NCBI GenBank assembly: GCA_009746045.1
Contig: RPFO01000080.1
Coordinates: forward strand, 5,061,556-5,125,555
Direction of reading: 5' to 3'
DNA: 64,000 nucleotides
From: Mesostigma viride
Taxonomy: Eukaryota > Streptophyta > Mesostigmatophyceae > Mesostigmatales > Mesostigmataceae
The notes beneath the pieces were generated by a model that was not told the origin of the DNA, did no database searches, and saw only the letters and a program-made list of their open reading frames with translations. Shown in pieces: positions 21,635 through 63,860 of this stretch (within the stretch, counting starts at the first letter, position 1; each line of letters starts with the position of its first letter). The position numbers were made by a program, and so were the translations under genes.

Positions 21635-21963
21635 TTACACAACGTCAGGCTTGGCTTGCGTAACCAGTCCCTGGTATTCCTCCTTGACCGGCTTGTGCTT
21701 GGTCAGCGACTGGCTCAGCGCGCCCTCGTGACTCGTGTCCACCGCGCTGGCATCTGCCCCCACATCCTCACTGACGTTGAGCCGGCTACGGAGTGGCTTG
21801 CCGGCCGGGCTGCCGCGCTGCCCGCTGAGGGGGGAGTGGCGTTCGGGGGATGCCGGCAGGTTGTTCTCGCCGTCAAAGCTCGGGTGCTTGAACACCTGGC
21901 TGCCAGTGCGGGGCGTACCCTTGGGTGTCGCGTCGGAGAGGGATGGCGGCACGAGCGGTGCAT
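21635..21963 (-). CDS. Minus-strand gene, terminal exon (12 of at least 12)
   Basis: The acceptor CCCAATCAG lies just above 21963. The exon opens with two bases that complete a GAT codon with the last G of the preceding exon, so phases join. It encodes about 109 residues rich in Ser, Pro, Gly and Asp, beginning APLVPPSLSDATPKGTPRTG and ending QAKPDVV with TAA at 21637-21635. It looks disordered, and the end is basic then acidic. TGTAA, the chlorophyte polyadenylation motif, overlaps the stop. The product of the whole gene is not recognised. Confidence 0.75.
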
Positions 21964-21989
21964 CTGATTGGGGGATGGTGCAAAGGGGA

Positions 21990-22130
21990 TGCGGAAGCAG
22001 GCATCATTCACAGGAATTGGTGAAACCATGCACACAAATAGGTGAAACCATGCACAGGAACAGGCGAAACCATGCACAGGAACAGGCGAAACCATGCAAG
22101 AGGAGTAGGTTAAACCATGCACACGAACAC
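21990..22130. repeat. Intronic tandem repeat, unit about 24 bp
   Basis: Six or so imperfect GAAACCATGCACAGGAACAG units directly upstream (sense) of the terminal exon. This family is seen only in this intron. Confidence 0.75.
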
Positions 22131-22644
22131 GTGAAAGTCAGACTGAGACATTTTGTTGAGACCTTGTTTCTGTCAATCCCATGGATCCTGCATTCAGCCC
22201 TTCTTGGCGCAGAGGCCTATGAAAAAATGGGAAGGACAGCGTCACACGATATGCAGTATGATGGGCAGGGAGTCACAAGCAGAGGGGATAGCTCACCTAT
22301 TGGCGCGCTCCGCAGCGGGGCACACCTCAGCCTCGCCTCCGCCCTCGTGCGATAACGAAGTTCTAAGCCCGACTATCTAAAGTACATGGTGGAGGAGATT
22401 AGTTCAGTAGAGAGACCACTTGAGGGGTAGTAGGTAAAGAGAATCAGGGGAGGAGATAAGTTCAGTAGAGAGACCACTTGAGGGGTAGTAGGTGAATAGA
22501 GTTTACGAACCTAACCAGGAGCTATCGGACCTAATGGTGTGCGTCGCAGCTGTGAATGGCTCAGCCGCAGCCCTCCTCATGTACACACCAAGCGACGGGG
22601 ATCAGGTGGCTAGGAAAAAAAAGAGAGGAGGGTGAATGACGCAC

Positions 22645-22804
22645 CTAGTGGCACGCGCCGCAGCTGCAGATGGCTCAGCCGGAGACCCGCCGCGTCCATC
22701 ATGGGCTGCATGTCCTGCAGGCTGACGCCCGTGCGCCGGCGGACAAAGTCGATCAGGGAGAAGACGTGCGGGTGCTGGCCACGGGACACTTGGAACTTTT
22801 GGGA
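22645..22804 (-). CDS. Minus-strand gene, exon 11
   Basis: The acceptor is GCAGAG before TCC (phase 0) and the donor is GTGCGT after CTAG. It encodes about 53 residues, starting SQKFQVSRGQHPHVFSLIDF, then RRRTGVSLQDM and ending RLSHLQLRRVPL. It is amphipathic and helical-looking, and not matched to a domain by eye. Degraded copies of its 3' end and donor lie at 22518-22575 and 22310-22345. Confidence 0.75.
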
Positions 22805-22844
22805 CTCTGCGGGAGGGCAGGCGAGTATGGTGAGGATGGTCACG

Positions 22845-23070
22845 CCGGGTCATTACAAGCCATGCCGAGTGATTAGAAGATATGCCGAGTGATTACAAGT
22901 CATGCAGTGATTGCAAGTCATGCCGAGTGATTACCAGGCATGGCGAGTGATTACAGGTCATGCCGAGTGGTTACAAAGTCATGCCGGGTGACTACCAGGC
23001 ATGGCGAGTGATTACAATTCATGCCAAAAGATTACAAAGTCACGCCGAGTGGTTACAAGACATCGCTGGG
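22845..23070. repeat. Intronic tandem repeat, unit about 18-20 bp
   Basis: About twelve imperfect units of GTCATGCCGAGTGATTACAA, immediately before (sense strand) exon 11. Variants with ACCAGGCATGG alternate. Confidence 0.8.
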
Positions 23071-23480
23071 TGGACATGGGAGGTGCTGGCTTCCCCGATG
23101 AGATACATGAAACATTCTTTCACATCAAACACTTTTTCGCGTCAAACCTGGTGTGCACATCTCAAGAAAAGGATCGAGAGGGGGGTATTGAAGGCATACA
23201 CAGGCCTTCATGGGAAGGGCTCTTTGAATGCATCTTGGTAGCACAGTTGATAACTTGAACAGTGAGCATGGTAGGGAATTCTGAGCACACGCTGTCACGG
23301 GAGTACCAGACGTGCGCGATGGGATGGTGATGACAACAAAGCACAATGTTTCTTTTCCCCGCGCGAGCGCGACGCGAAAAGGGCCAAAAAAGAGCGCGGC
23401 AGTGAACACGCGTGCTTCATGCTTAGGCGCCACAAGCAAGATGACAGCATGGTGGCAAGGTGGCAGCCGCCGCGATCTAC

Positions 23481-23568
23481 AAACATCCACGTACTGCTGT
23501 ACGCTGCCAGGTGCTCCCAGAACTTCTCCAGCAGGTTCTTGTTCAGTAGCAGGCCGTCTGCCAGTAGC
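23481..23568 (-). CDS. Minus-strand gene, exon 10
   Basis: Acceptor CCATCCCCAG, donor GTAGAT. The first base completes an AAG codon with the AA left by exon 9. It encodes LLADGLLLNKNLLEKFWEHL and then AAYSSTWMF, a leucine-rich amphipathic stretch. The donor is a weak match, so the 3' boundary is less certain than the phase-supported 5' one. Confidence 0.65.
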
Positions 23569-61739: not shown

Positions 61740-61936
61740 CTCTCTCTCTCTCTCTCTCTCTCTCTCTCTCTCTCTCTCTCTCTCTCTCTCTCTCTCTCTC
61801 TCTCTCTCTCTCTCTCTCTCTCCCTCCCTCCCCCTCTCTCTCTCTCTCTCTCTCTCTCTCTCTCTCTCTCTCTCTCTCTCTCTCTCTCTCTCTCTCTCTC
61901 TCTCTCTCTCTCTCTCTCTCTCTCTCTCTCTCTCTC
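61740..61936 (+). repeat. (CT)n microsatellite in intron 8
   Basis: Almost pure CT with one CCCTCCCTCCCC interruption, on the sense strand, 165 bp ahead of the exon 9 acceptor. Confidence 0.95.
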
Positions 61937-62100
61937 CTCTCTCGCCCCCCCCCTGTGGGCTCGCGTCTCCTCGCTGGTAACTAAGGACAGCACCTTGCCC
62001 ACACAAGCTCATAATCCGCCCCCCTCCATGCTCACACGCAAGCACCTTGTGGCCTGCCATTCCCCGCCATGCCGGCACACGCCGTGGTTACGTCGGACAG

Positions 62101-62193
62101 CGCATCGCCGCGCGCAACGAGATCGCACGTGCCAAGGACGAGTTTGACAAGTTCGACCTTATCAAGGGAGAAATGGCGTGGGCGGGCCAGAAG
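62101..62193 (+). CDS. Plus-strand gene, exon 9
   Basis: Acceptor ACGTCGGACAG, donor GTGAGT, phase 0 at both ends, 31 codons: RIAARNEIARAKDEFDKFDL, IKGEMAWAGQK. Charged helix. The acceptor has a weak pyrimidine tract, but the phase fits both neighbours. Confidence 0.75.
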
Positions 62194-62716
62194 GTGAGTT
62201 CCCAGCGAACTTGGTCTTAAACGGACTTGTCTAGAGGGGATATTTATTCACATAAACCGTGTTGGATACTTATTCAGAACAAGAGTGTTGGATAAATAGA
62301 GGGGATGTCTATTCTTAACAACAGGGTTTGATGCCGGATTCCGCGCACTGCTCTTTTGCGTCCGGCAAGTAATGGCATGGATATAGCTGTTTGGTATCTT
62401 CCTCTTGGTATTTTTAAAATTTATTTATTTTTGTAGTTTGGGTCTATATTTTACTGTGTGCTATTTTACTGGCTCTATGTGTTACTGGGGGCTTCATAAT
62501 TTGCTGGCTCCCCTATCTGCTTCCCTCAGCTCAATGTCCTTGACAGGGTCCTCATGATTGGTTGATTTTAGTTTTCGTCAAACCCCTTCTGCTGTCACCC
62601 TCCACCAGACAGACCAGATACCTGTGGGGGCATCTTGCCATGCTGGCTGTTGTTTTATATGCGAGTATGCACTTCCTCATCAACTCACGCTTTGTGCTTG
62701 TGCTTTATCAACTCCC

Positions 62717-62915
62717 ACGCAGGCCAAGACCTACGACTGGCTGATTCTTTTTGTTGTTGAATCTTTTTCTCGTCTGTTCTAATTCACCGCGCAGACCAAG
62801 ATCTACGAGGGCATCCTGACGGTTGGCTGATTCTTTTTGTTCTTGAATCTTTTCCTCGCCTTCACATTACTCACCACGCAGACCAAGATCTACGAGCGCA
62901 CCCGGGCGGTTGGCT
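62717..62915 (+). repeat. Three acceptor-side echoes of exon 10
   Basis: At 62717-62746, 62794-62828 and 62876-62915, CGCAG then RCCAAGAYCTACGA followed by decayed exon sequence and GGTTGGCTGATTCTTTTTGT. The unit is about 80 bp. Each keeps an AG acceptor just before the exon-like start. Confidence 0.85.
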
Positions 62916-62967
62916 GATTCTTTTTGTTGTTGAATCTTCTTCTCGTCTTTGTCGTTCCACCGCGCAG

Positions 62968-63125
62968 GCCAAGATCTACGAGGGCATCCTCACGATGGTG
63001 GCGCAGAAGGTCAAGATGGAGCAGGACATGATCGGTTTTGAAGACACGGGCGCGCGCTTTGAGCGGCTGTTTGGCTCCTCCAAGGCGCTGCTCGCCGAGG
63101 AGGCGTTCCGCAAGAAGATGGCCAA
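62968..63125 (+). CDS. Plus-strand gene, exon 10 (last seen); PRC1/MAP65-like segment
   Basis: Acceptor ACCGCGCAG, donor GTGAGT, phase 0 in and 2 out. It encodes AKIYEGILTMVAQKVKMEQD, then FEDTGARFERLFGSSKALLA, EEAFRKKMAK. The pattern R-F-x(3-4)-G-x(3)-LL-x-EE-x(2)-RK resembles the conserved region at the start of the microtubule-binding domain of the Ase1/PRC1/MAP65 family, which bundles antiparallel microtubules in the spindle midzone or phragmoplast. The glycine pair of the usual motif is replaced (G-S-S), so the call is tentative. The gene continues beyond the window. The ten exons encode about 740 residues. If the family call is right, the first 450 or so are an unusual disordered extension. 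Confidence 0.6.
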
Positions 63126-63860
63126 GTGAGTGGGCGGGGATACGGAGGAATGTCAGATTCAGGTACTGGCAGATCGGAGCGCCCCGCAGAAAGATGGCCA
63201 AGGGAGGGGCTGGACGGATAAACTAGTGAATGTTTGAAGAGTGACTATGACACTGGGCACTCTAGTAGAACGATATAGGCTCGTTTATATGAGGCGTCCC
63301 GCAAGCAGATGGCCAGGTGTGTGGAGCCGTCGTGGCCAGCTTCCTGTGGCGTAGTGCCAGGTCTTTGATCGGTGTGGCACGATCCGTGGGAAGAGAAAAT
63401 AGAATGACAATGTCTGAACAAACATTCCCAGTGTTTAAGTATATTTCCAGCTGGTTTTCGACTACCCAGCACAGCGTGATCAACCGCCATCGTGATCTAC
63501 CCTGCATAAAACGATCCCTATGTGTGATTCTTGCCCCTTCACATTCGTGGGGCCTCCCTCTTCGCTCCCTCCGCTTCACCCACTCGCTTGGCCATCTTCT
63601 CGCGGAACGCCTCCCATAAAACAGGCAGCCTCATAGCCTCACAGCATGTACAACAAGAATTCATGGCCGTTATATATGCTGTCCCCCCTGCACACAAACA
63701 CCCAATTCTAGGGAGTATGCGCTGTGTAGGGGGCTCGCACCTAACGATGGTTGCTATGTAATATTGGTCCCACCACCACCACCAATACCACCACAGACAC
63801 AGGAAGCTCATTATGCTGTGCGAGGGCCTGGCACTTGACTAACGATGGTTGTTAATACGG
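63126..63860 (+). other. Intron 10 of the plus-strand gene
   Basis: It contains donor-side echoes of exon 10 at 63183-63202 (AGAAAGATGGCCAAGGGAGG) and 63290-63318 (GCAAGCAGATGGCCAGGTGT), and an inverted echo at 63583-63612. A duplicated CTAACGATGGTTG word (63741, 63838) precedes the CAC repeats. Confidence 0.7.

Follow-up and report, generated by a model that had tools for sequence, protein, structure and literature searches.

In a 64,000-nucleotide stretch of the genome of Mesostigma viride (Streptophyta; assembly GCA_009746045.1, contig RPFO01000080.1, positions 5,061,556 to 5,125,555; hereafter the window), the exons of two genes, one on each strand, are accompanied in the adjacent introns by short, decayed partial copies of their own ends. 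Such exon-edge copies are real and are general among the genes sampled: the duplicates are short, local and direct, occur in unrelated genes, often cross the exon-intron junction, and are free of coding constraint. Probably they arise by ordinary duplication of short neighboring stretches, which affects introns as well as exon edges and is not aimed at splice junctions.

Exon-edge copies in the window and in unrelated genes

For both genes, exon models were reconstructed from the sequence using open frames, splice signals and phase. Reading phase is consistent from plus exon 2 to plus exon 10 and from minus exon 5 to minus exon 12 (in our numbering, where minus exon 5 is exon 6 of the original prediction); minus exons 1-3, the link between plus exons 1 and 2 and the link between minus exons 4 and 5 are without phase support. 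A Pfam scan of four proteins derived from the window returned nothing above cut-off. The outer 60 bp of each exon were aligned to the adjoining intron on both strands, with simple repeats masked, and the scores were compared to those from 40 first-order Markov shuffles and from the introns of the window (neighboring introns being excluded from the control).

On the same strand, 19 of the 40 exon edges – in 16 of the 22 exons – scored higher than in any shuffle or any non-adjacent intron. At a fixed score of at least 16, the common threshold for a copy (a well-preserved copy being one that scores at least 30), 17 of the 40 edges have a same-strand copy. The original prediction, made by inspection without a computer, had placed copies beside at least 14 of about 22 exons and named self-alignment, with shuffled introns and exons of other genes for comparison, as the check; the alignment bears it out. 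Coordinates were obtained for 39 window copies, 26 on the donor side and 13 on the acceptor side. For 17 of the former and seven of the latter the alignment ends at the junction itself, but this zero offset is partly forced, because the query held exon sequence only and could not extend into the intron. Many donor-side copies keep the GT at the junction, a feature that a spliced RNA template would lack.

Independent genes were taken by Pfam homology from the 440-Mb genome (2243 contigs) in which the window lies: chaperonin CCT/Cpn60 (30 of 58 matches used), Prp8 and kinesins (30 of 129 matches used). Edges were placed by profile position and splice signals; for CCT/Prp8, phase was used only where two adjacent exons were present, and for kinesins phase was not used. 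After removal of edges that had no acceptable splice site or too little sequence, 70 of 86 CCT/Prp8 edges and 51 of 70 kinesin edges were retained. A single-exon chaperonin locus (L011), four long-frame kinesin loci (L043-L046) and the C887 haplotype (the same gene as on contig C1641) were left out.

For CCT/Prp8, 12 of 70 edges have a copy at a score of at least 16, compared to 77 of 4412 mismatched pairs; under a stricter rule (a score above every shuffle and above the flank of every other locus) eight of the 70 remain. For kinesins the figure is 10 of 51, against 3.9% of 2438 mismatched pairs, a control that is probably inflated because kinesins resemble one another. When all 161 edges are pooled, 39 have a direct copy, one has an inverted copy (at a window donor edge) and two match a reversed-sequence control. 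The claim that copies lie in many unrelated genes, on the same strand, as the product of recurrent local duplication thus holds. Copies are about twice as frequent in the window genes (17 of 40 edges) as in the rest of the sample (22 of 121), and donor edges carry a copy more often than acceptor edges (26 of 85 vs. 13 of 76), a difference that is not significant (P=0.065).

The principal copies in the window, with the exons they border, are as follows.

53821..54045, plus strand: plus exon 1; open frame with GT donor.
54000..54303, plus strand: 88-bp tandem array spanning the donor; the unit is the last 46 bp of exon 1 and 42 bp of intron (97% matches).
54459..54483, plus strand: additional donor-side copy of the exon 1 end, followed by GTAGGT (alignment).
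56365..56680, plus strand: plus exon 3; phase fits exons 2 and 4.
56699..56783, plus strand: donor-side copy of the exon 3 end (score 30, 71% identity).
57822..57839, plus strand: donor-side copy of the exon 4 end; likeness extends about 21 bp into the intron (alignment).
58783-58807 and 58906-58927, plus strand: two acceptor-side copies of the exon 5 start (alignment).
59031..59211, plus strand: plus exon 5; phase fits exons 4 and 6.
59150..59552, plus strand: 85-bp tandem array of the exon 5 end and intron start, spanning the donor; four copies past the real end.
59597..59658, plus strand: acceptor-side copy of the exon 6 start (score 28).
60303..60337, plus strand: acceptor-side copy of the exon 7 start (alignment).
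60629..60681, plus strand: donor-side copy of the exon 7 end (84% identity).
62738..62986, plus strand: 87-bp tandem array of the intron end and exon 10 start, spanning the acceptor (83% matches).
63568..63614, minus strand: plus exon 10 end, copied in inverted orientation (score 33).
32839-32802, 32540-32501 and 32290-32243, minus strand: three weak donor-side copies of the minus exon 4 end (alignment).
30522..30737, minus strand: minus exon 5 (exon 6 of the original prediction); open frame, AG/GT, phase fits exons 6-7.
30451-30422, 30342-30298 and 30173-30144, minus strand: three donor-side copies of minus exon 5 (alignment).
30738..30990, minus strand: end of the intron preceding minus exon 5, in three copies; intronic likeness (anchored scores).
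25115..25273, minus strand: minus exon 9; phase fits exons 8 and 10.
25526-25480 and 25710-25669, minus strand: two acceptor-side copies of the minus exon 9 start (alignment).
24918..24995, minus strand: donor-side copy of the minus exon 9 end (68% identity).
22576-22531 and 22349-22297, minus strand: two donor-side copies of the minus exon 11 end (alignment).

The inverted copy at 63614-63568 is the only strong inverted copy of an exon edge seen, and does not belong to the 161 pooled edges. The final copy of the array at 59150-59552 does not contain the intron part of the earlier copies, which is unexpected for plain tandem duplication.

At minus exon 5 the donor-side copies described in the original prediction are present at the three positions listed. 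On the acceptor side it had placed copies of the exon start near 30812, 30893 and 30974. AG dinucleotides do occur there (30818, 30901 and 30979), but the likeness to the real acceptor is intronic and hardly exonic: anchored scores are 21, 22 and 16 on the intron side and 3, 3 and 2 on the exon side.

Splice junctions compared to intron interiors

If duplication were anchored at exon-intron boundaries, as the original prediction proposed (through R-loops, splicing-linked breaks or stalled transcription, for instance), copies should concentrate at junctions. The frequency with which 60-bp segments are matched on the same strand within the neighboring 500 bp was determined at successive offsets for the 145 of 161 edges with a 500-bp flank (segments with more than 15 masked bases were skipped). 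Partners were found for 36 of 144 segments comprising the last 60 exon bases, 50 of 136 junction-centered segments, 35 of 126 segments comprising the first 60 intron bases, and 33-42 of 130-136 segments at each of six offsets (60-250 bp) in the intron interior; the minimum, 28 of 129, is at offset 15. The local copy rate over exon end, junction and deep intron is thus 22-37%, compared to 0.5-2.2% in non-own controls. Well-preserved copies (score of at least 30) are found for 13 of 136 junction-centered segments vs. 15-20 of 130-136 in the intron interior, and are therefore not commoner at junctions than inside introns. When a partner is allowed within 1 kb (score 16), the window gives 46% for introns, 43% for edges and 20% for exon interiors; the corresponding values for CCT/Prp8 are 23%, 26% and 10%.

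Copying also extends to the intron side of junctions. At 26 of 159 edges (those with the 250-bp flank required for the intron-side test) the junction or the intron side is copied without a matching exon copy, and the best-preserved arrays span junctions: in the window these are the arrays with units of 88, 85 and 87 bp at plus exons 1, 5 and 10, and elsewhere units of 76 bp (contig C1468), 70 bp (C2189) and 40 bp (C1641/C887) likewise extend across them. At a CCT donor a 40-bp unit comprising 31 exon and nine intron bases occurs twice on both haplotypes (L042:193-270); it is a clear young exon-edge copy. Beyond these two repeats, another and more decayed copy is visible by eye.

The interpretation offered originally therefore survives in part. 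Recurrent local same-strand duplication in many genes stands; anchoring at splice junctions is not supported, the intron interior being copied about as often and the best arrays crossing the junction, with a mild excess at edges remaining.

Several observations weigh against duplication that is indifferent to junctions. Junction-centered segments show the highest rate of any position at score 16 (the 50 of 136 above). Near-exact clusters lie at exon edges in 13 of 69 cases, compared to 5.8 expected from random placement (P=0.0035). In a strict scan, near-exact copies at five of 16 edges end within 3 bp of the junction; a masked G run explains one of these stops and two copies extend a few bases further by eye, and two of the 16 edges mark where the profile ends and not a splice site. 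A significant intron-side match is present in just 14 of 48 pairs of a real edge and its copy. Simulations of unbiased copying with uneven decay predict crossing of the junction at frequencies of 0.17-0.37, 0.37-0.52 and 0.53-0.69 for three classes of exon score; observed frequencies are 7/25 (0.28), 2/14 (0.14) and 5/8 (0.62), with one pair outside the classes, so that the middle class (exon score 21-30) crosses less often than simulated and the other two fit. Among 29 pairs of copies compared with each other, in which neither side is constrained, the exon side exceeds the 99th percentile of the null in 28 and the intron side in eight, a comparison biased by the choice of copies for their exon similarity.

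Finally, copies are concentrated in genes: within the window 46% of intron segments are copied vs. 15% of intergenic segments, and near-exact clusters number 0.90 per kb in the two genes vs. 0.23 between and before them. An evenly acting process alone does not account for this gene-rich density. Duplication special to introns was considered as an account and was not borne out beyond the window: CCT/Prp8 introns (23%) differ little from the flanks of the outermost known exons (25%). Of the segments in the 20 kb that adjoin the window, 20% have a local copy.

The excess at edges may have a simple cause. Since selection conserves one of the two members of an exon-edge pair, the pair should stay recognizable about twice as long as a pair within an intron, and an excess of about the size seen would be expected. 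Anchoring would then not be needed, although a mild preference for splice junctions may still sit atop general duplication. A related account, possible though doubtful, is that exon edges are mild hot spots on a background of general local duplication: introns would then grow outward from exons and hold a layered record of dead edges, the youngest nearest the exon. Anchoring proper is less probable still, and we consider it unlikely. The high rate in junction-centered segments, the enrichment of near-exact clusters at edges, the 24 of 39 window copies at junction offset 0 and the five near-exact copies that stop at or near the junction all speak for it; set against these are the distribution of well-preserved copies, the arrays that span junctions, the edges whose junction or intron side is copied alone, and the fact that offset 0 is partly imposed by an exon-only query.

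Age, decay and origin of the copies

Copies differ from their source exons at all codon positions (mismatch rates of 0.132, 0.158 and 0.213 for positions 1, 2 and 3), and 27 of 67 contain frame-breaking gaps: they are thus not maintained as coding sequence. The higher rate at third positions is consistent with silent change in the real exon. These data bear on the notion that the copies are alternative or once-used exon ends kept by splicing. A correctly placed GT or AG in many copies is in its favor, but the constraint expected of alternative (duplicated) exons is absent from the pattern of mismatches and gaps, and we regard this explanation as very improbable.

The original prediction also held that within a series the copy nearest the exon tends to look best preserved. 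Across all genes examined, 18 pairs have the higher score in the copy closer to the exon, six have it in the farther copy and 11 are tied, which agrees with that statement (pairs within one series are not independent). Of 106 near-exact clusters, 99 have a shortest lag of less than 120 bp, from a search that extended to 600 bp. Shortest lags fall mainly at 15-45 bp and 60-120 bp, with seven of the 106 above 120 bp. Among 69 near-exact clusters none lies inside an exon or holds a whole exon; with lags mostly below 120 bp, whole-exon copies are expected to be rare in any case.

Two haplotypes that are about 2% apart in aligned bases differ by six indels of at least 6 bp. A 43-bp tandem copy is present on one haplotype only (a single event), which indicates that the duplication process is recent; a 7-bp indel likewise repeats its neighbor. 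At some loci the assembly apparently contains two haplotypes, as on contigs C1641 and C887, which BLAST aligns at about 96-97% identity; one of the two carries a 3.1-kb insertion. The near-identical contig pair C622/C2 was uninformative on new copies.

Under ordinary local duplication, introns would accumulate short same-strand tandem or near-tandem copies of nearby sequence, the near-exact ones mostly within about 120 bp. Copies that damage an exon, or that add a spliced-in exon, would presumably be removed by selection, and those that leave one intact exon and splice site would stay in the intron and decay. With the real exon constrained and both intron halves drifting, old pairs should come to match mainly on the exon side; such uneven decay would produce an apparent break at the junction. 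A new copy would land beside the exon and displace older ones outward, generating the gradient from near to far. Replication slippage or template switching may give rise to single copies, and unequal exchange to arrays; the near absence of inverted copies argues against repair routes that copy both strands equally. Splicing may impose a further filter: a donor-side copy would have to leave a short 5' splice signal and an acceptor-side copy a longer one, a requirement that could yield the non-significant donor excess.

Two remaining alternatives can be set aside. Chance, low complexity or wrong exon models might be suspected in a window rich in simple repeats, with part of the exon models lacking phase support, but this is hardly credible given that simple repeats were masked, that controls match at about 0.5-4%, and that the pattern recurs in Pfam-defined exons of independent genes. 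A dispersed introner-like family inserting at junctions is just as implausible: the same sequence is not found at many loci (among the sampled loci, edges find a match in about 0.5-4% of non-own flanks), matches to an edge are far more frequent in its own flank than in the flanks of other genes, and no point in its support was found in the sampled sequence.

Known duplications and wider meaning

The ingredients of the phenomenon are already known. Thomas et al. 2004 reportedly described short local paired duplications ('doublets'), and Messer & Arndt 2007 are said to have described short tandem-duplication insertions. The copies reported here are likewise short, local and near-tandem; unlike those, they form repeated decay series beside exons. 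They lie near their source and on the same strand, are not limited to one class of sequence, and are polymorphic (in a single event), as expected of short local or tandem duplications.

Mammals and flies are known to undergo both short local duplication and insertion by tandem duplication (PMC2671141, PMC2374710). Repair-mediated duplications had donors within 5 kb in 824 of 1,136 cases and copied exons and intron splice sites, four 'partial exon/intron' donors being tabulated (Pace et al. 2009, PMC2671141). That set excluded copies 50 bp or less from the template and includes an exon copied in the opposite orientation, whereas the copies described here are near-tandem and almost all direct. 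Tandem genomic duplication has also been reviewed as a route of intron gain (PMC3443670). As in that process, the duplication includes splice-site sequence; in intron gain, however, the duplicated exon segment becomes the intron, whereas the copies examined here sit within introns. Dense series of exon-edge copies were not found described in the open-licence literature, as judged by title and the opening of the abstract among the matches listed.

A likeness to intronic minisatellites is also apparent: many window introns contain arrays with units of about 13-90 bp, but here some units hold a functional exon edge. One minus-gene intron contains a 61-bp minisatellite of 17.6 copies (26700-27774; 95%). 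Elsewhere in the window three related long open frames (3605-5416, 9003-10355 and 41854-43080), the first with a weak, below-cut-off match to zf-RVT, appear to resemble the C-terminal region of LINE-type reverse transcriptases. A 248-bp tandem duplication of 99% identity (3033-3530) lies in sequence akin to these LINE-like frames, and a near-palindrome is visible by eye immediately past the stop codon of the minus gene (21590-21640).

The copies indicate how much of the intron sequence of one genome short local duplication can supply. Each constrained exon edge, together with its dead copy, provides a pair for measuring duplication age and neutral change. The copies also raise a question about splicing, namely how the true site is chosen with near-identical decoys within 100 bases, and they carry a caution: selection and unequal decay can mimic a mechanism targeted to junctions. 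Should exon edges prove to be mild hot spots after all, the layered record beside them could serve to date the growth of introns and to reconstruct earlier exon sequence.

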